Shown here: positions 4,027-17,364 of the stretch, in pieces
Layout: each line of letters begins with the position of its first letter
How positions within the stretch are numbered: position 1 is the stretch's first letter
Source of the DNA: a virus
Virus record (IMG/VR): IMGVR_UViG_3300017605_000360
Coordinates: 1 to 21,763 of that record
DNA: 21,763 nt
Direction: 5' to 3' (one strand)
Program-made: the position numbers and the translations under genes
Notes under the pieces: generated by a model
Told to the model about the DNA's origin: nothing
Database searches by the model: none
What the model saw: the letters and a program-made list of their open reading frames with translations, nothing else

Positions 4027-5489
4027 GGTTCCAATGCTACGCCCTGATACTCCCAGGGTCGACGCATGAATTGAGGGAACTCGCGAGTCAGGGGACCGCC
4101 TCCGAAATCGTCGAGACGCGTCGCCGTGTCCCCCTCGAACCCGACTCCGAAGAATCCTTGAGAGTAGAACTCCGGGTTATGCGACCGTTGAATTGCGGCG
4201 ACCCATTCCCAACCGGCGCCGAAATCTCGGAACAAGTGTTGTATCCATATGTCCCAATTGAGTTGTTGCAATCCGAGTTTTTCGCCGTCCGCCATGACGC
4301 CCCATATGACGCCGGTCACTCCCGGGACGTCGCCGTTGAACCCTGTCGAACCAATGAACGTCGCGCCGATCGGGAACGTCGCGGCGTTGAGGGCTCGCAT
4401 CGACGAATCGCGGTAGCCGACCGCCGCGGCGCCGACGGTCGCGGCCTGTCCGCTCCCGGTTCCCATCGCGAGGACGAGGTCGCCGACCGTGACGGCCGTT
4501 CCCCAAACCTCGAACTCGCCGCTCGCCGACTCCGTGAACATTTCGTCCAGCGTCCATTGCGAGCCCGACCCCGTCCCCGACGAACTCATCGCGTTTCGGT
4601 TCGAGACGACTCGCGTCCTCGCCGTCCCGAACCCCGGTTGATTCCCGGTCGTATCCCAAATCCCTCCGTCGGCCGGGTCCTCCGACGTCCGGTTGAAATC
4701 GTCGATTAGAGGCGTGTTCGGAAAATTCGGGTAATCGCCGTCGGGGATGAGCGCGACGATCGCGGCGAGCGCCTGAGCCGTCTCCCTCGTCGTCCCCGAC
4801 GCCGTCACGTCGACCGTGTCGCTCGAGAGGCCGGAGACGATCCGGAATCCGCCTCGAACCTGAACGTCGCCGGGAGGCGGAGCGCCGCTCGCGTTCCCGT
4901 GTCCGCTCGTTCCGTCGCCGGCGATTTGCGAGTAGTCGGAGTCCCAGGCCGAGAACCCGTCCGACTGTTGCCCATACGACGCGAGGACGTGAAGCATGAG
5001 ATATTCGCGGTTCGCGTCGAGGCCGGAGTAGGCCACGGCGCCCGGGTCCGTCCCGGCTCCCGTCCAAACCGTGACCAGCCGGTCGAAATCGAACGCCCAT
5101 CGACGATCGACGCCGACGTCGAGAGGGTCGAGGGAGAATTGCTCGAGACTGACGGCCTTCGCGCCCGGACCGAAGTGTTTGAGCGTAATCGTGTTAGTCG
5201 TCTCGAGGTCGGCGCGGAGTTGCGAAATGAACAGGCCGACCCATAGCTGACCGCCGTTCGGGTAGCTCGAGCAGAGTTGAAGGTATCGGTTCCCGGCGTC
5301 GTCGGAAACGGAACACTCCGGCGTCTGAGTTCCGTTCGGCCCAAAGAAATAGTGCGACGTCCAGGCGACGAACACGGCAACGAAATCACCGGCCGGGACG
5401 TCGGCCGACGGCGAAATCTCCATCGTGTATTTCGAGAAGTTGTATTCGCTCGCGTGTCCGAGCGATCCCTCCGAGTGAAAGACGCTCAC
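4023..5489 (-). CDS. Minor tail protein with C-terminal concanavalin-like domain
   Basis: A 488-aa protein. Residues 1-250 are beta-rich (FVAVFVAWTSHYFFGPNG, SVSDDAGNRYLQL, TAQALAAIVALIPDGD), resembling a jelly-roll or Ig-type domain that carries a D..GN.Y signature. A second half from residue 261 (LIDDFNRTSEDPADGGIWDT) to about 475 is a concanavalin-like sandwich. The start is GTG 5489 (GTGA overlap with the fibre gene), and the stop overlaps the endolysin GTG. It is the last tail gene before lysis, a typical place for receptor-binding or tip proteins. Carbohydrate binding is inferred from fold pattern and no catalytic residues were identified. Confidence 0.72.
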   Translation of the reverse strand: MSVFHSEGSLGHASEYNFSKYTMEISPSADVPAGDFVAVFVAWTSHYFFGPNGTQTPECSVSDDAGNRYLQLCSSYPNGGQLWVGLFISQLRADLETTNTITLKHFGPGAKAVSLEQFSLDPLDVGVDRRWAFDFDRLVTVWTGAGTDPGAVAYSGLDANREYLMLHVLASYGQQSDGFSAWDSDYSQIAGDGTSGHGNASGAPPPGDVQVRGGFRIVSGLSSDTVDVTASGTTRETAQALAAIVALIPDGDYPNFPNTPLIDDFNRTSEDPADGGIWDTTGNQPGFGTARTRVVSNRNAMSSSGTGSGSQWTLDEMFTESASGEFEVWGTAVTVGDLVLAMGTGSGQAATVGAAAVGYRDSSMRALNAATFPIGATFIGSTGFNGDVPGVTGVIWGVMADGEKLGLQQLNWDIWIQHLFRDFGAGWEWVAAIQRSHNPEFYSQGFFGVGFEGDTATRLDDFGGGPLTREFPQFMRRPWEYQGVALEP

Positions 5490-6739
5490 GCGAGAGCGCC
5501 GGGGAACGACTTCGCCGAGTTCCAGACGCGGAGGTAGTCATACGCCGCGGCGATGAGGCCGGCGGAGCCCGGACAAATCCCGATCCCGGCTCGAGCGAGC
5601 GTCCCGATCCCGGGGTTCCTCGAGTCGACGACCTTTTTCCAGACGAGGCCGTTGTGAGAAATCAGGTAGTCGACGTCGCTCGACGAGTTCGCTCGGATCG
5701 CGAGGTAGAGCGGCGAGCCGATGAACCGAGCGCCGGAGTAGACGTTCGCCGTTTGCGCCAGCTCGACCCATATTTGATTGCTCGCGTTGCCGACGAGAAC
5801 GCAATCCATGTTCCCTGAGCCGAGCGTCGTGTTCCCGATAAACAGTCCGTATTTCGTCCCGTCCGTCTCGACGATTTCGCGGTCGGCGAGTTTCGCAACG
5901 ATCGTGCAGGCCGGCGAGACTGAGAGGTAGCGGCCGACCCATCCGGAGTTGTCGTCGTCCCGAATGTAGTAGTGGTCCGGGACGGTCGTATCGGCGTCCT
6001 CGGCGTCGATCGAGCCGAGCGCCGTGAGCCCGGTGAGGCTCGACGTGTCGAACTCGAACGCCGTGTCCGGAGTGCCGAGCGCGTCGAACACGGGATCGCC
6101 GGCGCCGGACGTCGGGGGGTCGATCCATTCGTCGTCGTAATCCGTTCCGGAGGCCTTCGCGAGTATCTGTCCGGTCGTCCCTCCGGCCGGAACTCCGACG
6201 CCGTCGGCTCCGTCCGCTCCGTCGGCGCCGTCCGTCCCGTTCGTCCCGTTCGTCCCGTTCGTCCCCGGGGGACCCGTGACGACGCCGACCGCGTCCGGCG
6301 AGGCGAGAAAGTAGAAGTAAACGCCGAGCCCGGTCGCTCCGACCGCGGCCGAGTCGACGTCGATCGCGAGTTGTTGTCCCCACGCGACCTCGGCGTATGT
6401 CGGATCAACGACCGGGAGCGTCGCCGCGGTTTTCGACGATTTCTCGCCTGAGTCGATCGTGATAGGCGTCGAGAGAATGTCAATGCTCGACTGAACGTCG
6501 CGGATCATGACCTCGGTCGTTCCCGACCCGGGGTTCGAGATGAACGCGGCGACCTTCATGAGAACGTGTCCGTCGAGGTCCTCCGGAATCTCCCAGACGA
6601 ACCGAGCGTCCCCCGTCTGAACTTGAAGGTTGTCCCGGCCGACCTTGATCGGCCACATTGCGAGCGACGGGATCGGGTCGGGACCGCCGATCGTATGGTC
6701 CTCGGCGTGAATCGAGGGGATCGTCCGCTCGTTGCTCAT
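5486..6739 (-). CDS. Tail fibre with collagen-like and concanavalin-like parts
   Basis: A 417-aa protein. Residues 1-27 (SIHAEDHTIGGPDPIPS) look like a tail-attachment segment. Residues 28-150 form a beta-rich domain. Residues 156-182 are nine collagen-like G-X-Y triplets (GPP, GTN x3, GTD, GAD x3, GVG). VPAGGTTGQILAKASGTDYD (183-202) is a motif very common in phage fibres. From about 213 to the end is a concanavalin/LamG-like domain with YLAIRANSSSDVDYLISHNG and YDYLRVWNSAK. The start ATG 6739 is in an ATGA overlap with the hub gene; the upstream extension to 6835 is shadow. It is probably a trimeric fibre that binds host surface sugars. Confidence 0.82.
   Translation of the reverse strand: MSNERTIPSIHAEDHTIGGPDPIPSLAMWPIKVGRDNLQVQTGDARFVWEIPEDLDGHVLMKVAAFISNPGSGTTEVMIRDVQSSIDILSTPITIDSGEKSSKTAATLPVVDPTYAEVAWGQQLAIDVDSAAVGATGLGVYFYFLASPDAVGVVTGPPGTNGTNGTNGTDGADGADGADGVGVPAGGTTGQILAKASGTDYDDEWIDPPTSGAGDPVFDALGTPDTAFEFDTSSLTGLTALGSIDAEDADTTVPDHYYIRDDDNSGWVGRYLSVSPACTIVAKLADREIVETDGTKYGLFIGNTTLGSGNMDCVLVGNASNQIWVELAQTANVYSGARFIGSPLYLAIRANSSSDVDYLISHNGLVWKKVVDSRNPGIGTLARAGIGICPGSAGLIAAAYDYLRVWNSAKSFPGALA
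6234..6260 (-). repeat. Three tandem 9-bp units coding collagen-like GTN triplets
   Basis: GTCCCGTTC is repeated three times perfectly on the plus strand (6234-6242, 6243-6251, 6252-6260), coding consecutive Gly-Thr-Asn triplets in the fibre gene. Neighbouring Gly-Ala-Asp triplets are less exact copies. Such a tract can grow or shrink by slippage or recombination, changing shaft length. Confidence 0.85.
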
Positions 6740-8064
6740 GTAATCGGTTCCTGCCAGTATGTCGCCGGCGAGAGGTCGAGGGTCATATCGAGGAACGGAA
6801 ACCCCGTGTCGAGGTCCTTGACGCCGTAGCGCCACGTCTCCGAGATTCCCTCGACGAAATACGTCTCGGCCTCGATCCCTCCGCCTCCGGGGAACTCACG
6901 CGTCAGGACGATTTGATCCGAGACGTCGACCTGAGTCACGAACTCCCAGAGGTCCGGACCGCGAATGTCCGAGGGCCATAGCGCCTTGAACGAGAGTTGC
7001 GAGACTCGAGGCGCCGGCGTCGCGTAGTTGTTGACGATGTATTGCGCGAACGCGAGACATTCCTCCGGACCCGTGTTCCCCGTGACGATCCCGTCTTTCG
7101 TCATGAGGTCCGTCGCCTCCCAGGATCGGCCTCCGTGAGCGGCGATCGAGGTCGAGTCCTCGACGACCTGAGTCAGTCGATCCTTCGCTCGCATATCCGA
7201 GGGGTAGGCCATAGCCTGATTGCGGAGTAGCCGGCGCGACGAGGCGACCGAGAACGGAGGCCGAATCTGAATCCCTCCGGTTCCGGCCGTCCATGAATGA
7301 AAATCCCAATGAGTCGCGGTCGCCGCGGTTCCCGTCGGGTCGAACCGAGCGTTCCGTCCGTGAAAACAGACGACGCCGTATTTGTCGACGAACAGGTTCC
7401 CGATCCCCGGGAACTCGGCGTCCGCGGCGTCTCGCATGACCGAGAGGATCGACTCGCCGGGGGAGTATTTCGCCTCGAGGACGTTGACGTTCCCCGTGAA
7501 AATCGACGTGAGGCCGGAGGGGAACTCGCAATCGGCGAGCGCCTGATTGATCCGGATTTGTGGTCCCGTGACCAACGTATCTTCGTAGAACACGAACCCC
7601 GTCGAGCGAGCCGGCGGAGGATCGCCAGGGGGACCGACGCCGTTCGGGTTCGGGTGAAGGTGGAAATTCGAGAAGTAGTCGAGCGCGTCGACGGCCTCGA
7701 GCGTGACCGTTCCTTTGACGAGCCCGGACGGGTCGAGTTCATATCCGTGGTCATCGACAGCGCCTCGAAACCTAGGGTGCCAGGTGTCCGTCACGGGGTT
7801 TCGGACGGCGAACGCGAGCGGTCGGGAAATGTAGTCGACCGTCGTCGGGTCGAGGTCGCCGGCGCGATCGTTGAACGTCGCCGTCATGGTCCCCGTCTCC
7901 GTCTGTTCGAACTCGTCTTGACGGCCGCGACGAATCTCGACGCTCGAGAGTCGGAGGCCTCCGCCGGCGTTGTCGAGCCGGGTCCATGACGGGAGAACGG
8001 TTTTCAGGGTCGAGCCCGGAGCGACCGAGAGGCCTTCCCAATTGAAAACGTCGAGGACGCCCAT
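6736..8064 (-). CDS. Distal tail / baseplate hub protein
   Basis: A 442-aa protein beginning MGVLDVFNWEGLSVAPGS. An N-terminal region with SSVEIRRGRQDEFEQTETGT (residues about 40-59) and ATFNDRAGDLDP is the typical opening of actinophage minor tail proteins. A central part has ILSVMRDAADAEFPGIGNLF and VDKYGVVCFHGRN, resembling hub proteins of the phage-derived gp37/gp27-like class. The C-terminus has FVEGISETWRYGVKD and DMTLDLSPATYW. It follows the tape measure directly, as distal tail/hub genes do. ATG 8064 has GGGAG 8 bases upstream. It should close the tail tip and hold the fibres. The exact fold assignment is inferred. Confidence 0.8.
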   Translation of the reverse strand: MGVLDVFNWEGLSVAPGSTLKTVLPSWTRLDNAGGGLRLSSVEIRRGRQDEFEQTETGTMTATFNDRAGDLDPTTVDYISRPLAFAVRNPVTDTWHPRFRGAVDDHGYELDPSGLVKGTVTLEAVDALDYFSNFHLHPNPNGVGPPGDPPPARSTGFVFYEDTLVTGPQIRINQALADCEFPSGLTSIFTGNVNVLEAKYSPGESILSVMRDAADAEFPGIGNLFVDKYGVVCFHGRNARFDPTGTAATATHWDFHSWTAGTGGIQIRPPFSVASSRRLLRNQAMAYPSDMRAKDRLTQVVEDSTSIAAHGGRSWEATDLMTKDGIVTGNTGPEECLAFAQYIVNNYATPAPRVSQLSFKALWPSDIRGPDLWEFVTQVDVSDQIVLTREFPGGGGIEAETYFVEGISETWRYGVKDLDTGFPFLDMTLDLSPATYWQEPIT

Positions 8065-11245: not shown

Positions 11246-11662
11246 TTACGTCCCGGCGCCCGACTGAATCCCGTCCTCCGTCGCCGGCGTCGCCGAGAAC
11301 GGCATGACGGAAACCTGACCGCGAGTGTCGGCCGGCCCGAACTGATTGATCGTACAATCGGCGTAGTACGTCGTCGCCGTCGGATCGACGAGTCCGTTCG
11401 GCTGGAACAGAACCTCGACGATCGTCCGGTTCCGGTGCAGGTCCCAAATCGCCGGCGCCGATTCCTCCGTGTAGAACATTTCGCCCGTGAACCCCTGAGC
11501 CGTCGAGCCCGGGAGCGTCTCGTCGTTTCCGGACACGGAGAACCCGGAGACGTCCTCCGTCGAGTGTTCGGAGGAAAACCCGAACTGACGGAACGCGTTC
11601 GAGTAGTCCGTTCCGTCAATCTCGATCCGGTCATGCTTCGCGACCTTCTTAGAGAAACTCAT
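11246..11662 (-). CDS. Major tail (tube) protein
   Basis: A 138-aa protein beginning MSFSKKVAKHDRIEIDGTDY. It is beta-rich throughout, with the pattern IEIDGTDYSNAFRQFGFSSE, VSVMPFSATPATEDGI near the end and a Gly/Ser-rich C-terminus. This fits short actinophage tail-tube monomers that stack as hexamer rings around the tape measure. Placement immediately before the tail assembly chaperone and tape measure supports the call. The start ATG 11662 is in an ATGA overlap. If virion glycosylation occurs, tail tube and capsid are the usual acceptors in glycosylated mycobacteriophages; no acceptor site can be assigned here. Confidence 0.85.
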   Translation of the reverse strand: MSFSKKVAKHDRIEIDGTDYSNAFRQFGFSSEHSTEDVSGFSVSGNDETLPGSTAQGFTGEMFYTEESAPAIWDLHRNRTIVEVLFQPNGLVDPTATTYYADCTINQFGPADTRGQVSVMPFSATPATEDGIQSGAGT

Positions 11663-11880
11663 CCCGCTACGTCCTTTCTGTCGATTGTCACCCAGGCTCG
11701 CGGGAGCCGGAACGTTCCCGGCTCGATCGTCGGCTCGACCCTCTCGATTAGCTCGAGGTCGCCGCGAGCGATCGCCCTACCCTCGGCGAGAGGGCTCAGG
11801 CGAGCGCCGAATTCTGTCCCCGGTTCGTGTCCCCGATAGCGACGGGAGCCGGACACGCGATAGACGCCGATCGCCGTCAT
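11659..11880 (-). CDS. Small neck/tail-region protein
   Basis: A 73-aa protein beginning MTAIGVYRVSGSRRYRG. The sequence VYRVSGSRRYRGHEPGTEFGAR followed by AIARGDLELIERVEP suggests a small beta-barrel-like domain. The start ATG 11880 and the stop are both in ATGA overlaps, with the glycosyltransferase gene and the major tail protein gene respectively. Being directly before the tail tube gene suggests a neck, tail-completion or tube-associated part, but I do not recognise a named family. The long upstream in-frame extension to 12336 is an Arg-rich shadow of the glycosyltransferase gene. Confidence 0.65.
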   Translation of the reverse strand: MTAIGVYRVSGSRRYRGHEPGTEFGARLSPLAEGRAIARGDLELIERVEPTIEPGTFRLPRAWVTIDRKDVAG

Positions 11881-12635
11881 GCGACGACGGCCTCGCGATC
11901 CCGACCGTAGTGAGTCGCCATTTCCTCGAGCGCCTCGGCCGGGAACACGCCGGCGAGCGCCTCGAACGGATCGGCCGGCGCCGAGCCTCGCCAGCGACCA
12001 GCGACCTCGGAGTAGGCGTTTCGGTTCGAGCCTGTCGATTTCCAATCGACTATCTGTCGCGTGTCGATGGTCGGATATTCGACGCGGAACCGGATCGTCC
12101 GTTGCAGGTTGACCCAAATCGACGTGTCGCATCCCCTGACGCGATCCTCGTCGGCCGGCCGATAGTCGAGTCGCTTGAGGATCGCTCGAGGGTAGATACG
12201 GATTCCGGCGCCTCCGTCGTAATCGAGGAACCTCGACGTCAACTCGCGGCCGTCCTCGCGGACGAACGAAATCGTCTTGAACCCGACGACCGTGTTCGGC
12301 CGGGGGAGGTCGAGCAGAACCTCCGCGGCGATCCAATCGTCGGAGCCCAGGGGGACGACGTAGTCGACCGGACGGGGGTTCAGCGAGCGGTCACAGGCGA
12401 GTTGAATCCCGTCATTGAACCGCCGGCTCAGGAACAGGTTGTTCCGGCGGATCGTCCCGAACCCGAACTCGAGCGCCGAGTCTAGGTTCTCGTCATCGGC
12501 GATGACGACCGCCGAGGCGTCGACGCCGGCGTCCTCGAGGTCCTCGATCGTCCGCCGGAGTTGCCTGAGACAAATCCGAGTGAGCGCGAGCCGGCCATGA
12601 GCCGGGACGACGAACCACAGGCTCGGACGCTTCAT
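11877..12635 (-). CDS. Glycosyltransferase, GT2-like
   Basis: A 252-aa protein starting MKRPSLWFVVPAHGR, a typical GT2 first strand (VVPAHGR). AVVIADDENLDSA (42-54) is the nucleotide-binding strand. RRFNDGIQLACD (71-82) and VVPLGSDDWI (93-102) follow, with GSDDW giving the DxD-type metal site. Later come RFLDYDGGAGIRIYPR and RGCDTSIW, then a C-terminal helix AEALEEMATHYG. ATG 12635 has GAGGG 4 bases upstream and an ATGA overlap with the microgene; upstream in-frame ATGs at 12683 and 12704 lack good ribosome binding sites. It likely transfers a sugar to a phage or host acceptor, with specificity unknown. It ends the cassette. Confidence 0.8.
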   Translation of the reverse strand: MKRPSLWFVVPAHGRLALTRICLRQLRRTIEDLEDAGVDASAVVIADDENLDSALEFGFGTIRRNNLFLSRRFNDGIQLACDRSLNPRPVDYVVPLGSDDWIAAEVLLDLPRPNTVVGFKTISFVREDGRELTSRFLDYDGGAGIRIYPRAILKRLDYRPADEDRVRGCDTSIWVNLQRTIRFRVEYPTIDTRQIVDWKSTGSNRNAYSEVAGRWRGSAPADPFEALAGVFPAEALEEMATHYGRDREAVVA

Positions 12636-12739
12636 TCGTCCCTCGCCGGATTGAATTGAAACCGAAGGTTCGACGAGCCCCATAGAGCGAGCATGAACTC
12701 GCATTTCCCGGCTCGGTTCGCCGGTCCGCCGAGAGTCAC
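12632..12739 (-). CDS. 35-aa cassette microprotein
   Basis: A small gene of 35 codons plus stop. GTG 12739 overlaps the deacetylase stop (GTGA), and its TGA overlaps the ATG of the next glycosyltransferase (ATGA at 12635). It exactly fills what would otherwise be a 100-base hole in a run of coupled genes. The product begins MTLGGPANRAGKCEFM and ends with SSNLRFQFNPARDE; it has one Cys and a mixed basic/aromatic composition, with no membrane segment or known domain. It may be a translational coupler, a small enzyme partner, or a modified substrate. Evidence is the double overlap; function is unknown. Confidence 0.6.
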   Translation of the reverse strand: MTLGGPANRAGKCEFMLALWGSSNLRFQFNPARDE

Positions 12740-13479
12740 GCCGCGACCCTCGCGAACGCGTCAGGCCACCAATCCGGATGCACAAGCGCCTGCAAATGAA
12801 CGCCTCCGCCGGCGAACCGCTGAGCTACGTCGTCGAACGGTTGCGACCAAACGCCTCCGGAGTCCGAGAGGTAGTCGTCTCGAGGTAGCCAATTCGCGTC
12901 GTACTCGAGCGAATACAGCGAGCGCGAAACCGGCTCGAGCGCGAGAACCACGTTCCCGGCTCGGAGGAACCGATCGCCGGCGCCGTAGTCCGGCCGGCGC
13001 GACTCGACGAACATTTCGTCATTGACGAACCTCGCCGCATGACAGAGTTGATCGCCGTGAGCGACGGCGCCGCTCACGGGAACGCCGCTCGAGCGGAGTT
13101 CCTCGAGCGCCGCGAACAGAATCCGATGAGGGTCGTCGTCGTTGAGCAACGCGAGCGCGACGGCGTTGACGTGAATCCCAACCTCATGACCGAGGTCGAC
13201 GAACTCGCCGGCGCGAACGATCGCGTCCTCCCAATAGTGAGCGCCGTGTAGCAGGAAAAACGTCGACGAGTAGCCGCGCTCGAACTCCCATTCGGCAAAC
13301 GCGAGCGCCGTCTCGAACGACTGAGGATTGTCGTCGACGTCATGACGGAGCCCGATGACGCCGGCGCCCGTGTCCCCCTTGAACACGTCGCGGAGGGGGA
13401 CGACGCGTTCGGCTCGCGAGAGTAGCCGGCCGTCGAGCGCCTCGAGGTCGGCCGGCGTGAACGGAGCCCGGAGATTCAC
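12736..13479 (-). CDS. Polysaccharide deacetylase-like protein (CE4/NodB type)
   Basis: A 247-aa protein with the landmark motifs of the RHDVD branch of polysaccharide deacetylases: RHDVDD (45-50, catalytic base and metal Asp), GHEVGIHVNA (97-106, metal His98 and His103), AHGD (140-143), LSDSGGVW (204-211) and ALVHPDWW (231-238, the C-terminal His motif). Known members are metal enzymes that remove N-acetyl groups from sugars. The metal set looks complete, so activity is plausible. The start is GTG 13479 (GTGA overlap). No signal peptide is present, so it would act in the cytoplasm, fitting modification of a virion glycan or a nucleotide-sugar precursor rather than finished cell wall. Confidence 0.8.
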   Translation of the reverse strand: MNLRAPFTPADLEALDGRLLSRAERVVPLRDVFKGDTGAGVIGLRHDVDDNPQSFETALAFAEWEFERGYSSTFFLLHGAHYWEDAIVRAGEFVDLGHEVGIHVNAVALALLNDDDPHRILFAALEELRSSGVPVSGAVAHGDQLCHAARFVNDEMFVESRRPDYGAGDRFLRAGNVVLALEPVSRSLYSLEYDANWLPRDDYLSDSGGVWSQPFDDVAQRFAGGGVHLQALVHPDWWPDAFARVAA

Positions 13480-14051
13480 GCCGCGACCCTATCCCGTATC
13501 GACCGGACGCGTTCGGCGATTTCGTGTTTGAAACCTCTCGCCCATGACTGATGAGCCATACGGTTCGGCCTCGCCGCGATTTCGTGGTCGATCGTGAACT
13601 CGAGGTCGACGTGACGGAACGGCGTCAGGCCTCCGACGACGAGGTCGGCGTAGCGATAGAACGCGTCGTCTCGCGGCCATTCGCCGAGGTATCGAGCGAG
13701 CGCCCAGGGAGCGAGGTCGCGGTCGAGGATCGCTCCGCCATGCATGAGGACGAAATCCTCGAGCCCGTCGGGGTTCTCGCCGTGACCGTATGTCGAGACG
13801 ATCGTCCCGGGTTCATACGCGTCGACGAGGTCGGCGTGACGCTCGAAAATACAGTCGTCGTCCTGAACGTAGACGACGCTCGTCGGCGCCTCGGCGACGG
13901 CGAGCCAGCGGACGAACATTCCATACGCGTCCGGCCGGTCGCGGTCGCCGGTCCAGATGACGACGCTCCGATAGGGGAGCGTCTCGAGGATCGGCGCGAG
14001 GTCGACGTCGCCGCGAGTGACGAGGACGGCCGTCACGTCGGAGGGTTTCAC
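13476..14051 (-). CDS. GT-A-fold glycosyltransferase-like protein
   Basis: A 191-aa protein. The N-terminal strand VTAVLVTRGDVDLAPILETL (6-25) is followed by SVVIWTGDRD and then VVYVQDDDCIFE (59-70), where DDD (64-66) is placed like the metal-binding DxD motif of GT-A glycosyltransferases. Later features are HGGAILDRDLA and VVGGLTPFRHVDLE. It is short for a full GT2 enzyme but covers the nucleotide-sugar half. The start is GTG 14051 (GTGA overlap); the long Arg-rich in-frame upstream extension to 14480 is a shadow of the methyltransferase gene. Its job is inferred to be sugar transfer to a protein or a surface glycan. Donor and acceptor are unknown. Confidence 0.7.
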   Translation of the reverse strand: MKPSDVTAVLVTRGDVDLAPILETLPYRSVVIWTGDRDRPDAYGMFVRWLAVAEAPTSVVYVQDDDCIFERHADLVDAYEPGTIVSTYGHGENPDGLEDFVLMHGGAILDRDLAPWALARYLGEWPRDDAFYRYADLVVGGLTPFRHVDLEFTIDHEIAARPNRMAHQSWARGFKHEIAERVRSIRDRVAA

Positions 14052-14548
14052 TCGACGACCTCGTCGGGCTCGAGGACGCCCCATAGAACGCCGTTCCCCC
14101 GCTCGATGAGTTCGGTCGGGTGCCAGCCGCCGGGGACGTTGAGGACGTCGCCGTCGAGAACGCCGAGGACGACCGCTCGTTTCGCGATCGCCGTCCAGGG
14201 CTCGAGGTCGGCGTGAACGCGAGTCATCGCGGTTCCCCTGAACGGGTCGAGCGAGACGACGTCGAACCGCGCCTCGAGGTCGCGAGCCTTCCGAGCGAAA
14301 TCCCAGGCGTCGCCTACAACCCAATGCCAGTCGGGGTCGCGATAGAGGCCTCGCATTTCCTCGAGACGCTCGCCGTCGACGTCGACGAGCGTGACGAACG
14401 GGACGCCGGCGTCGGCGAAATGAACCGCGTCGTTGCGGCCGAGGAATGCCGCGGCGAACAGAACGAGCGCCGTGTCGCATCCCTCGAGGACGCTCGCCGG
14501 ATACGGTCCGGCGTCAATCGCGACGTGTTCGAGCGAGGGATAGGTCAC
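14048..14548 (-). CDS. SAM-dependent methyltransferase-like protein
   Basis: A 166-aa Rossmann-type protein. It has LVDVDGERLEEM (residues 54-65), an acidic end of strand 2 that usually binds the ribose of SAM; WVVGDAWDFA (76-85), the motif III-like adenine contact; and FDVVSLDPF (95-103), motif IV. The glycine loop of motif I is poorly conserved (residues 27-38, ALVLFAAAFLGR), so catalysis is not certain. GTG 14548 (GTGA overlap) is preferred over GTG 14557. Within the cassette it could methylate a sugar hydroxyl or a virion residue. A spermidine synthase-like or non-catalytic Rossmann protein is the alternative. Confidence 0.6.
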   Translation of the reverse strand: MTYPSLEHVAIDAGPYPASVLEGCDTALVLFAAAFLGRNDAVHFADAGVPFVTLVDVDGERLEEMRGLYRDPDWHWVVGDAWDFARKARDLEARFDVVSLDPFRGTAMTRVHADLEPWTAIAKRAVVLGVLDGDVLNVPGGWHPTELIERGNGVLWGVLEPDEVVE

Positions 14549-15198
14549 GCGAGCCACTCGACCTCGCGTCCCTCGAACCCAATCCGTTCCTTGAAATAGC
14601 GGAGGCCGTCCGTTCCGGAGTCATGACGGTTGTAAACGAGGAACCCTCCCGACTCACGCTCGACCTCGAGGACGCCGCGAGCGAGTAGATACATGACGTC
14701 ATCGCGGAGGTAGTCGCCGTGACCGAGGATTTGTGAGACGAGCGCCAGGTCGCCGGCCCGATAGATGAACGCATAGGCGACGAGGGGGACGGGTTTCTCG
14801 GCGCCGGCGAACACGCCGAACGCGTGAACGCCGTGTCGCGGACAGGGCCATTCGGGGTCGGGCTCCGGGCTCGGCCGCTCTCGATAGCCGGCCGACATAG
14901 GCCGACCCTGTCGCCGCTCGAGCGACGTGTTGATCGAATAGAGGTCGTCGACGTAGGCCTCGCGGACGAACGGCGCGAACCGATAGCCGAGACGCTCCGC
15001 TCGTCGAGCGCGACGTCGCGCCGTCCGATGAGTCTCGGCCCAGGCCTCGAGGTCGAGGCCGTCGAGGTCGAGGACGGAACAGACGTCGTATCGACCGAGG
15101 ACGAGTTGAGAGAGCAGGGGCTCAGCGAACGAGCGACAGACAGGCGAGCCCGAACACTCGAGTTCGAGCGCGATCGCGGTCCGGACCGCGGTCGTCAC
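14545..15198 (-). CDS. FemAB/GNAT-like acyltransferase
   Basis: A 217-aa protein. An Arg-rich helix (HRTARRRARRAERLGY, residues 57-72) precedes an N-terminal block with DDLYSINTSLERRQGRPMS, then a core with VAYAFIYRAGDLALVSQILG (140-159) and a C-terminal GTDGLRYFKERIGFE (195-209). The last is the conserved tail of GNAT/FemAB acyltransferases (GL..FK.R.GF). Such enzymes move acyl or aminoacyl groups from CoA or tRNA to amines, here perhaps an amino sugar. The start is GTG 15198 (GTGA overlap); the open frame extends upstream to 15561 only inside the neck gene. It is the first gene of the cassette and next to a deacetylase that could expose amines. The substrate is unknown. Confidence 0.7.
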   Translation of the reverse strand: MTTAVRTAIALELECSGSPVCRSFAEPLLSQLVLGRYDVCSVLDLDGLDLEAWAETHRTARRRARRAERLGYRFAPFVREAYVDDLYSINTSLERRQGRPMSAGYRERPSPEPDPEWPCPRHGVHAFGVFAGAEKPVPLVAYAFIYRAGDLALVSQILGHGDYLRDDVMYLLARGVLEVERESGGFLVYNRHDSGTDGLRYFKERIGFEGREVEWLA

Positions 15199-15659
15199 GA
15201 ACGCGCCGGAATGACGAGGAACGACCAAATCACTCCGAGATGAACGCCGCTCCCGTCGATCGTCGGGAACGGCCTGAACCCCGACTGACTCTCGAGGTTG
15301 AGGTCGGCCGCGAGGCCTCCGAGCGTCGGGTCGTCGTAAAGCGCCTGGACGACCGACGCGTCCGATTCGGGGTCGCACAGGTCGACGAGGATCGCTTGAT
15401 TTGCTCGAGCGTCGTTCGTCGCGACTCGAGCGCGGACGTTGATCCATTCGCCGGAGGCCGAGTCCGCGTCCGTCTCGCCGAACGCGGCCGTCTCGACGAG
15501 TTCGCGGCCGGGGTCGCCGGGATAGACGTCGATCGTCGGAGGCGACGGGTTCGCGATCCACAGGGGCTCGACCTGAATCGCGTTCAGGCTCGAGGACGCC
15601 TCGAGCGCGTCGCGGATTTGATCCGCCATAGCCGCGAGGATCGAGTTCAGCGAACTCAC
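15195..15659 (-). CDS. Neck protein, probable tail terminator
   Basis: A 154-aa protein. The N-terminus (NSILAAMADQIRDALEA) is an amphipathic helix, followed by IQVEPLWIANPSPPTIDVYP and a beta-rich region with EWINVRARVATNDARANQAI and a final strand GVIWSFLVIP. This alpha-then-beta arrangement resembles tail terminator (gpU-like) proteins that cap the tail tube and join it to the head. The start is GTG 15659 in a GTGA overlap with the adaptor gene. The downstream stop overlaps the first gene of the glycan cassette in the same way. A stopper-type neck protein is the main alternative. Confidence 0.65.
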   Translation of the reverse strand: MSSLNSILAAMADQIRDALEASSSLNAIQVEPLWIANPSPPTIDVYPGDPGRELVETAAFGETDADSASGEWINVRARVATNDARANQAILVDLCDPESDASVVQALYDDPTLGGLAADLNLESQSGFRPFPTIDGSGVHLGVIWSFLVIPARS

Positions 15660-15997
15660 GCGATCCCGAACCTATGTTTCAGGGGGTAGAGCGTGAACGC
15701 GTATTTCTCCCATGAGTTCCGAGCCAGGTGAGCCGACCCGAACTCGGAGCCGATCCCGGCGAGGCCTAGCGGAACCTCCTGCAATCCCCATAGTTCCGCG
15801 GCGCGTTGCAAACAAACCTGTTCGGCGACGGCGAGGTCGTCGTCGGCGACCGGGTCGTCGTCCTCGCGGTCGAGGTAGGCGTCAATCTCGACCGTCGCCA
15901 TTGTGAGGACGCGAGTCATCGCGGTCGTCTGTTCGGCCGTCGGGCTCCGGATTTCGAGGATTCGAGCGAGTTCAGTCTCGGAGGCGTATGTCGGCAT
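15656..15997 (-). CDS. Head-tail adaptor / connector protein
   Basis: A 113-aa mostly helical protein. The first 80 residues (ASETELARILEIRS, VLTMATVEIDAYLD, VAEQVCLQRAAELW) match the helical pattern of gp6/gp15-type head-tail connectors: short helix, long helix with a Tyr-Leu-Asp turn, then a helix with AAELW. The C-terminal part (KYAFTLYPLKHRFGIA) likely docks to portal or stopper. The start ATG 15997 has GGGAG 5 bases upstream. It lies first after the capsid gene, the usual place of the adaptor. Identity rests on pattern and position, not on a database match. Confidence 0.75.
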   Translation of the reverse strand: MPTYASETELARILEIRSPTAEQTTAMTRVLTMATVEIDAYLDREDDDPVADDDLAVAEQVCLQRAAELWGLQEVPLGLAGIGSEFGSAHLARNSWEKYAFTLYPLKHRFGIA

Positions 15998-16098: not shown

Positions 16099-17364
16099 TT
16101 ATGACGCGGTCGTGAGCAGCGCGAACGCCTCGTCCTCCGCGACGACGGCCTCGAACGCTCCGATGATCCCGACCTCGACTCCGCCGATCGCCGGCTCGAC
16201 GACCCGGAGTTCGACGGGAGCGCCGGGAGTCTCGGCGACGATGAGTTTGTCGCGGACGCCGACCGCCATGACGCCGGAGTCGAGCCCCCGGGAAATGACG
16301 ACCGAGAGGCCGGCGATGTTCCCCGACCCGTCGACGAACGAGAGGGAACCGTTCGCGAACACGGCCGGCGTTGCCGACGTGAGTCCGAGAAGGTAGGCCG
16401 CTCGATCCGGCGACAGGTAGAGCGTGTTCGCCATTTCGCCGGAGTTCCCGTAAACCTCGTTCAGTCCAGCGGCGACCGCCGTCATGAACGTCGCGAAATC
16501 CGGAGTCCCGGCGAGCGGGGAACCGATGATGTTGAGGAACGCGGCCGACTGTAGAACCTCGCCGGCGTCCTGTTCCGTCTTGAGCGCGTAGTCCGCCGCG
16601 GCGAGCGCGAACCACAGGTCGAGCGCGTTCGGCGTCGACCAATTGATCGCCTGCCAGGACAGGTCGCCTCCGCCGAGATACGTCGACGCGGTCGCATTCT
16701 CCATCGCGACCGTCATTTTCTGATTCCCGGCCTCCGTTTTCTGAGTCCCCTGAACCGCGACCACCGGCCGTTGCGTGATCTTCGGGAACGAGAGCGTCCC
16801 TCGGTTGAGGTCGACGTGAAACCCGGACGCGACGAGCGGCCGGCTCGCGTCGATGACCTGGAAAATCTGAGCGATGTGCTGTTCGGGGATGAGCCCGGGG
16901 ACGTCGGCCGTGAGCGTGTTCGCCGGCGTCCGCTTTGCGACCGCGAGCCTCTCGGCCGCTCGCGAGGAAACCTCGGAGCCGCCGGCGAGGGTCGCGATTT
17001 TCGAGCAAACCTCGGACGGCCGCGAGAGAATGTAGTCCCTCGCGTACTGAGCGAACGTCCGATACGCGACGTCTCCGTCGGCCGTGTCGATGAGTTCGCC
17101 GTCCTGAGCGGCCATGACGCGACGGACGCGAGTCGCCTCGGCGACGGAACGCCGAGTGTTCTCGACGACCTCGGCGAGTTCGCCGATTTCCGTGTCGAGC
17201 GACGTCATCCGAGTCCGGTAGCCGTTGATCTGTTCCGACTGAGACTCCGTCAGAACCTTCGCGTCGGATGACTCGACCGACGCGAGCAGGTCGTCGTGCA
17301 ACTTCGTGGTCGCGGCGCGTTCGTCAACCAGCCGAGCGAGCCGGACCTCCTGAACCGAATTCAT
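16099..17364 (-). CDS. Major capsid protein (HK97 fold)
   Basis: A 421-aa capsid subunit. Residues 1 to about 85 are charged and helical (LVDERAATTKLHDDLLASVE, then LDTEIGELAEVVENTRRSV), the internal scaffold/delta domain normally removed by the prohead protease. From about residue 95 on it follows the HK97 fold, with LTADVPGLIPEQHIAQIFQVI, the TLSFPKI strand and a C-terminal region giving ELRVVEPAIGGVEVGIIGAF. The start ATG 17364 has an excellent GGAGG 6 bases upstream, the strongest Shine-Dalgarno I saw in the structural block and fitting for the most abundant protein. The stop TAA at 16099-16101 is followed by a strong hairpin. The exact cleavage site cannot be read from sequence. Confidence 0.95.
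   Translation of the reverse strand: MNSVQEVRLARLVDERAATTKLHDDLLASVESSDAKVLTESQSEQINGYRTRMTSLDTEIGELAEVVENTRRSVAEATRVRRVMAAQDGELIDTADGDVAYRTFAQYARDYILSRPSEVCSKIATLAGGSEVSSRAAERLAVAKRTPANTLTADVPGLIPEQHIAQIFQVIDASRPLVASGFHVDLNRGTLSFPKITQRPVVAVQGTQKTEAGNQKMTVAMENATASTYLGGGDLSWQAINWSTPNALDLWFALAAADYALKTEQDAGEVLQSAAFLNIIGSPLAGTPDFATFMTAVAAGLNEVYGNSGEMANTLYLSPDRAAYLLGLTSATPAVFANGSLSFVDGSGNIAGLSVVISRGLDSGVMAVGVRDKLIVAETPGAPVELRVVEPAIGGVEVGIIGAFEAVVAEDEAFALLTTAS

Follow-up and report, generated by a model that had tools for sequence, protein, structure and literature searches.

A putative virion glycosylation cassette among the structural genes of uncultured phages

The subject of this analysis is a block of six open reading frames (ORFs) at positions 11877-15198, on the minus strand of a viral DNA of 21,763 bases (IMG/VR record IMGVR_UViG_3300017605_000360; the whole stretch is referred to as the window) whose main structural genes also occupy the minus strand. 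We consider it probable that this block is a virion glycosylation cassette, acting in the cytoplasm of the infected cell on the phage's own capsid and tail proteins, and its product is likely to be an amino-sugar-containing, methylated glycan on capsid and tail. The observations that bear on this reading are the order and coupling of the genes, the folds of the enzymes, the conservation and modularity of the block, its association with structural genes, and a preference for Ser or Thr as the last residue of some virion proteins. Decoration of the virion had been proposed in an earlier note on the window, and is well supported by the position of the block in two unrelated phage families, by cultured relatives that carry glycosyltransferases (GTs), and by the Ser/Thr signature. 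While virion glycosylation by phage-encoded enzymes is known, to our knowledge only in a few mycobacteriophages, the set of enzymes, its modular spread in uncultured phages and the C-terminal signature are new.

The cassette and its spread

The six overlapping ORFs announced by the earlier note were all found in place, flanked by the tail terminator and tail tube genes. The features of this part of the window are:

16099-17364, minus strand: major capsid protein and proposed acceptor, matched by tblastn to the capsids of MooMoo and Corndogviruses; C-terminus ...LTTAS
15656-15997, minus strand: head-tail adaptor (phrog_137, weak, E = 0.007)
15195-15659, minus strand: tail terminator, possible acceptor (phrog_17840, E = 2e-4); C-terminus ...PARS
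14545-15198, minus strand: Fem/GNAT-type acyltransferase, 217 aa (AF2 model, structure and profile comparison)
14048-14548, minus strand: class I (Rossmann) methyltransferase-like protein (hhalign, Pfam matches of relatives)
13476-14051, minus strand: GT-A glycosyltransferase, GT2-like, with an invariant Q-DDD, called GTA here (PF00535 in relatives)
12736-13479, minus strand: NodB-fold polysaccharide deacetylase, WbmS-like, 247 aa (AF2 model, structure search, invariant motifs)
12632-12739, minus strand: 35-aa ORF without homolog, possibly spurious
11877-12635, minus strand: GT-A glycosyltransferase of GT2 type, called GT2 here, the commonest cassette gene (PF00535 in relatives)
11659-11880, minus strand: small conserved protein g11659 between GT2 and tail tube, found after GT2 in most family members
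11246-11662, minus strand: tail tube, proposed acceptor (position and the annotation of the earlier note; Pfam gives a weak Dit-like match alone, E = 0.13); C-terminus ...SGAGT

From the adaptor (15997) to the tail tube (11662), every one of the nine junctions (9/9) is a 4-nt GTGA/ATGA overlap, and this stretch is therefore a single translationally coupled run. The cassette proteins have neither a signal peptide nor a transmembrane segment, as had been stated before (the highest 19-residue Kyte-Doolittle mean is 1.67). Direct scans of these proteins against Pfam and NCBIfam gave no significant match, and those against PHROGs yielded nothing usable; the families were assigned from structure models, profile-profile comparison and alignments of 19-40 members. 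Of the six ORFs, five are clearly real, with motifs kept across the 19-40 aligned sequences. The sixth, the 35-aa ORF, had been counted as a part of the set, which is doubtful: a search of the relatives' loci for homologs was negative, and in relatives that lack it the deacetylase and GT2 genes adjoin directly or a fibre-like gene fills the slot. By our estimate a chance ORF with both overlaps at this position has a probability of about 0.1, which is not improbable, and the frame may be a chance product rather than a functional part.

A search with the deacetylase led to one related contig (L004), whose gene order is as in the window, with identities of 49% for the acyltransferase, 38% for the methyltransferase, 54% for GTA, 59% for the deacetylase, 59% for GT2 and 56% for the capsid. 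Profile searches then gave 51 viral GT2 loci, 17 deacetylase, 46 capsid and 32 acyltransferase loci. In over 25 contigs of the window's phage family, some of which end inside the block, the five enzyme genes keep their order and start right behind the tail terminator. The earlier description of the cassette as inserted in the structural operon is thus misleading, as the block belongs to the regular, modular equipment of this family. At the cassette site one contig (L018) has GT2 alone, two (L030 and L031) have GT2 and the methyltransferase, and one (L105) has none of the genes; the other genes therefore seem to be accessories of a single key transferase. In L075 the acyltransferase-methyltransferase-GTA-deacetylase unit is placed upstream of the protease. 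A second family, whose capsid, portal and tail genes are unrelated to those of the window (phrog_267/104/117) and whose protease differs, carries GT2 directly behind the capsid gene, either alone or, in several contigs, followed by the other cassette genes. Wherever the neighbours are identifiable, the block sits among structural genes; it is modular and common to unrelated capsid types.

The host is probably an actinobacterium, as suggested by a relative (L115) that lies within a metagenome-assembled genome (MAG) labelled Actinomycetota and by capsid and terminase comparisons, which lead to actinophages. Searches of INPHARED by tblastn with the window's deacetylase, GT2 and acyltransferase returned at best one match (E = 0.02), and a search with the relatives' GT2 and GTA returned none. 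In some family members (L004 4794-5210, L017 2388-2837, L074, L099) the tail tube gene lies directly behind the capsid gene, and in others, among them the window (11246-11662), it lies behind GT2, which amounts to a relocation within the structural operon.

C-terminal Ser/Thr residues of virion proteins

In the primary work on phage virion glycosylation the glycans reportedly lie at the C-termini, and C-termini were therefore compared across families. Of the divergent tail tube clusters in the window's family, 12 of 13 end in Ser or Thr (binomial P = 3e-7), as do 27 of 28 tail terminator clusters (P = 3e-24), where the binomial P values ignore the relatedness of the metagenomic sequences in a small sample; the capsid has such an end in 48 of 51 sequences, a weak count, as these form only 4 clusters. 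The exception among the tubes is L105, a weak tube match from a contig without GT2. Exchange of Thr for Ser occurs at the tip. Among the proteins used for comparison, a terminal Ser or Thr is found in 0/16 adaptors, 2/30 g11659 proteins and 3/15 tape measure proteins, and in nearly none of the enzymes. In the second family, the tube, itself unrelated, also ends in Ser or Thr in 7 of 8 clusters (P = 3e-6), compared with 1/19 for the portal, and the adaptor is not Ser/Thr-ended. A further protein of the window's family, g6736 (window 6736-8064 and relatives), encoded behind the tape measure gene, has this end in 6 of 10 clusters, above background.

Searches with the capsid (tblastn) identify MooMoo and the Corndogviruses as the closest cultured relatives. 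Capsid and tube both end in Ser in Che8, Catdawg and MooMoo (3/3), and are not Ser/Thr-ended in D29, TM4 and Bxb1 (capsid and tube) or Giles (capsid and either candidate tube; 0/4 phages). For MooMoo the Ser ends were noted before its gene content, and two glycosyltransferases, gp94 and gp96, were then found in its record. Phage GTs reportedly glycosylate virion proteins in Che8, Corndog and Myrna, capsid and tail tube being the named targets (PMC12363180; also PMC11256854), and gp110 of Che8 and gp38 of Corndog are described as essential (PMC12363180). Catdawg (a Corndogvirus, cluster O) has an O-methyltransferase and three GTs in the interval between portal and capsid protease, so that Corndog and Catdawg resemble the window in having phage GTs and a methyltransferase inside the structural operon, as well as a related capsid (hidden Markov model (HMM) E = 1.7e-52), which in Catdawg ends in Ser, as does the tube. 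Catdawg differs in that its O-methyltransferase is of the TylF type, and that the region 6206-34796 has no annotated deacetylase or Fem/GNAT enzyme. Che8 and MooMoo share with the window's family the Ser-ended capsid and tube and the encoded GTs, whereas their GT genes lie near the genome end, distant from the structural operon; we know of no deacetylase/acyltransferase pair in either phage.

Taken as a signature, these C-termini strongly support O-glycosylation at the C-terminal tip, without amounting to proof; a hydroxyl residue at the tip of capsid and tube emerged here as a correlate and is not an accepted criterion for virion glycosylation. A number of observations weigh on the other side, together with the relatedness and the few capsid clusters already mentioned. 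The glycan itself is predicted from genes. In the window's family the strongest signature is that of the tail terminator, a protein for which we know of no report of glycosylation, so that a terminal Ser or Thr may have a structural reason; the terminator of D29 also ends in Thr. The tail terminators of the second family are not Ser/Thr-ended, and its capsids often end in Ala (VQA), including the commonest type, with Ser or Thr in 4 of 7 clusters. Ser-ended capsids are found in L073 and in some short contigs that have no GT2 within the available sequence. In Myrna, which is reported to be glycosylated, the sheath-adjacent protein (annotated as virion structural, probably the tube) ends in Val. 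In Catdawg, gp33-36 are not matched by the profiles of any of the five cassette enzymes (best E = 0.01).

The cassette enzymes

The earlier family labels hold for five enzymes, an acyltransferase, a methyltransferase, two GT-A proteins and a deacetylase; the acyltransferase is closest to the Fem type, so that transfer from acyl-CoA cannot be assumed. Structure searches with the acyltransferase and the deacetylase, which the earlier note had asked for, place them in Fem/GNAT and NodB folds and not in unrelated families.

The AF2 model of the deacetylase (pLDDT 96) has WbmS (3hft) as its best VIA match (Z = 11.4, rmsd 3.6 over 174 residues, 17% identity). The top of the list consists almost entirely of NodB-fold deacetylases, within about 1 Z of WbmS. 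Across 24 aligned sequences R45, H46, D47, D49, H98, H103, H141, L232 and H234 are invariant, and the positions of RHDxD, GHExGxH, HG and LxH are invariant or nearly so. The assignment to the CE4 type thus stands for the NodB fold, for motif 1 (RHDVD, with the base and metal Asp) and for motif 5 (LxH), and fails for motif 2 (HxxxH), whose second His is absent in all 24 sequences (V/I/L; V107 in the window); we therefore call the enzyme WbmS-like rather than a canonical CE4 enzyme. The invariant H141 may replace the missing His. WbmS itself acts in lipopolysaccharide biosynthesis in Bordetella, and differs from the window's enzyme in this respect and in sequence, with other deacetylases scoring nearly as high. 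A bacterial WbmS-like deacetylase (RHDID) occurs at L117 1195-1836 (minus strand; MAG G001), adjoining glycosyltransferase-like and ATP-grasp-like genes (names assigned by eye), and the phage enzyme may have a cellular origin in a protein of this kind. A fold similar to that of the window's deacetylase (TM 0.61-0.66) is also seen in BFVD A0A6J5PLG9, an uncharacterised protein from an uncultured Caudovirales phage. Among open papers, a literature search found no phage deacetylase in a virion-glycan pathway.

For the acyltransferase (AF2 model, pLDDT 94) the best VIA match is FemX (6snr), with Z = 14.9 over 191 residues, followed by Sbb17/Sba18 (Z = 14.3-14.7); FemX, FemA and Sbb17 give overall Z values of 13-15, and 176-191 residues are aligned with FemX, Sbb17/Sba18, FemA and MprF. 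Plain GNATs match less well (Z of about 11 over about 135 residues). In hhalign, with comparison sets gathered from Actinomycetota genomes, the probabilities are 90% for PF13480 (Acetyltransf_6), 81% for FemAB and 77% for GNAT (PF00583), and 0.1% and 2.6% for the controls PF08241 and PF09924. The MprF-type LPG synthase C domain resembles the protein in fold (Z = 13.6), but was rejected for want of a profile match (2.6%). The protein has the GNAT CoA loop, Q156-I-L-G159-H-G161, in which Q is found in 17, G in 25 and A/G in 23 of 25 members; the consensus of this P-loop, between strand 4 and helix 3, is Q/R-x-x-G-x-G/A (PMC4964394). K203, invariant near the C-terminus, falls at the FK motif in an alignment to FemAB sequences. 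The window's protein consists of a single complete GNAT domain and a short N-terminal part, as opposed to the two complete domains of the FemABX criterion, and with 217 aa it is shorter than its best fold matches, FemX, Sbb17 and Orf11 (about 285-400), from which it also differs by the GNAT-type loop QxxGx(G/A) of most members. Since the fold is closest to Fem and yet the GNAT CoA loop is kept, the donor may be either acyl-CoA or aminoacyl-tRNA; the presence of the loop in most members argues against aminoacyl-tRNA.

The methyltransferase-like protein is related by hhalign to Methyltransf_11 (92.5%, with partial coverage over 57 columns), all other families being below 0.4%, and 3 of its 24 members match PF08241; a G-x-G-x-G S-adenosylmethionine loop is not evident, and D53 is conserved. 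PF00535 is matched by 9 of 19 GTA members (best 3e-5), in which Q63, D64, D65 and D66 are invariant, and by 7 of 40 GT2 members (best 4.6e-7). A search of PDB sequences with the cassette profiles gave a GT structure as the sole match, 3bcv for GT2 (E = 3.5e-4). Homology between the GT2 and GTA families is unsupported by hhalign. A role in DNA glucosylation was not favoured, in view of the structural-operon setting and the association with fibres.

Proposed pathway and alternatives

The enzymes can be arranged in a tentative pathway. The GT2 enzyme would transfer a sugar from an activated donor to the C-terminal Ser or Thr of the tail tube and, in the window's family, also to that of the capsid, perhaps with the tail terminator as a third acceptor; GTA would lengthen the sugar; the WbmS-like deacetylase would take the N-acetyl off an amino sugar; the Fem/GNAT-type enzyme would load a new acyl or aminoacyl group onto the freed amine; and the methyltransferase would O-methylate the resulting glycan. 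Here we infer the acceptors, the order of the steps, the sugar, the acyl donor and the benefit, which might be masking or altered adsorption. The N-acyl exchange on an amino sugar suggested earlier is a hypothesis compatible with the folds. In a variant that we regard as doubtful, the Fem-type enzyme would charge the exposed amine from an aminoacyl-tRNA, and the virion sugars on the Ser/Thr tips of capsid, terminator and tube would bear amino acids. A precedent for the aminoacylation of an amino sugar is the Fem-like Orf11, which glycylates the amino-sugar intermediate streptothrisamine from Gly-tRNA (PMC12945691).

If virions are indeed glycosylated by this cassette, the modification would be widespread among a large number of uncultured, probably actinobacterial, phages, its genes would move as one module among phages with unrelated capsids, and it would bring amino-sugar chemistry to virions, from which we do not know it. 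A terminal Ser/Thr on tube and capsid, which has already picked out MooMoo, would then be a simple predictor, and glycosylated phages could be found from sequence for studies of antibody masking and adsorption.

A cytoplasmic cassette could instead act on precursors of the host envelope, be they lipid-linked sugars or those of peptidoglycan or capsule; superinfection, for instance, or the adsorption of released phage to debris might be blocked in this way. Fem-type enzymes classically use lipid II or UDP-MurNAc-pentapeptide (PMC4964394), WbmS is a deacetylase of O-antigen biosynthesis, and the WbmS-like homolog beside glycosyltransferase-like and ATP-grasp-like genes (by eye) belongs to a MAG with a related phage contig. 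We nevertheless consider this unlikely, given that in two unrelated phage families the cassette is found among late structural genes and coupled directly to those of capsid or tube, that it exchanges with fibre genes, and that the C-terminal signature is present.

It is quite improbable that the glycan is directed at cassette-adjacent fibre or head-decoration proteins rather than at capsid and tube. Fibre-like genes rich in Ser/Thr/Ala/Gly do lie between deacetylase and GT2 in L004, L006, L008, L011 and L017 and behind the deacetylase in L019, and L115 has a Ser/Ala/Pro-rich repeat ORF of 705 aa in the capsid/adaptor interval; however, the block of the window is without a fibre gene, L005, L009 and L012 have none between deacetylase and GT2, and fibre C-termini are Ser or Thr in 1 of 8 cases. 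Very improbable, finally, is a deacetylase carried on the virion to trim host surface glycans at adsorption, as in the archaeal virus HFTV1, whose turret head protein, a deacetylase of NodB fold, has PDB 3RXZ as its nearest structure (PMC12494034), one also among the best matches of the window's deacetylase (Z = 10.2), because the latter is a free-standing protein of 247 aa without an attachment domain, is translationally coupled to enzymes that require cytoplasmic donors, and was not noticed as a fusion to a structural domain among aligned relatives.

Two observations on repeat proteins can be added. The 705-aa frame of L115 (4804-6921; ATASAP...) overlaps other open frames and is maybe not the coding one. 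In the window, 5486-6835 is related to the fibre genes inside the relatives' cassettes, and its product, of minor tail or fibre-like type, has collagen-like repeats (GTNGTNGTNGTDGADGADG); the HMMs 'g5486' and 'fibre' match partly through low-complexity Ser/Thr/Ala/Gly repeats, and 'fibre-like' is used here as a label only.

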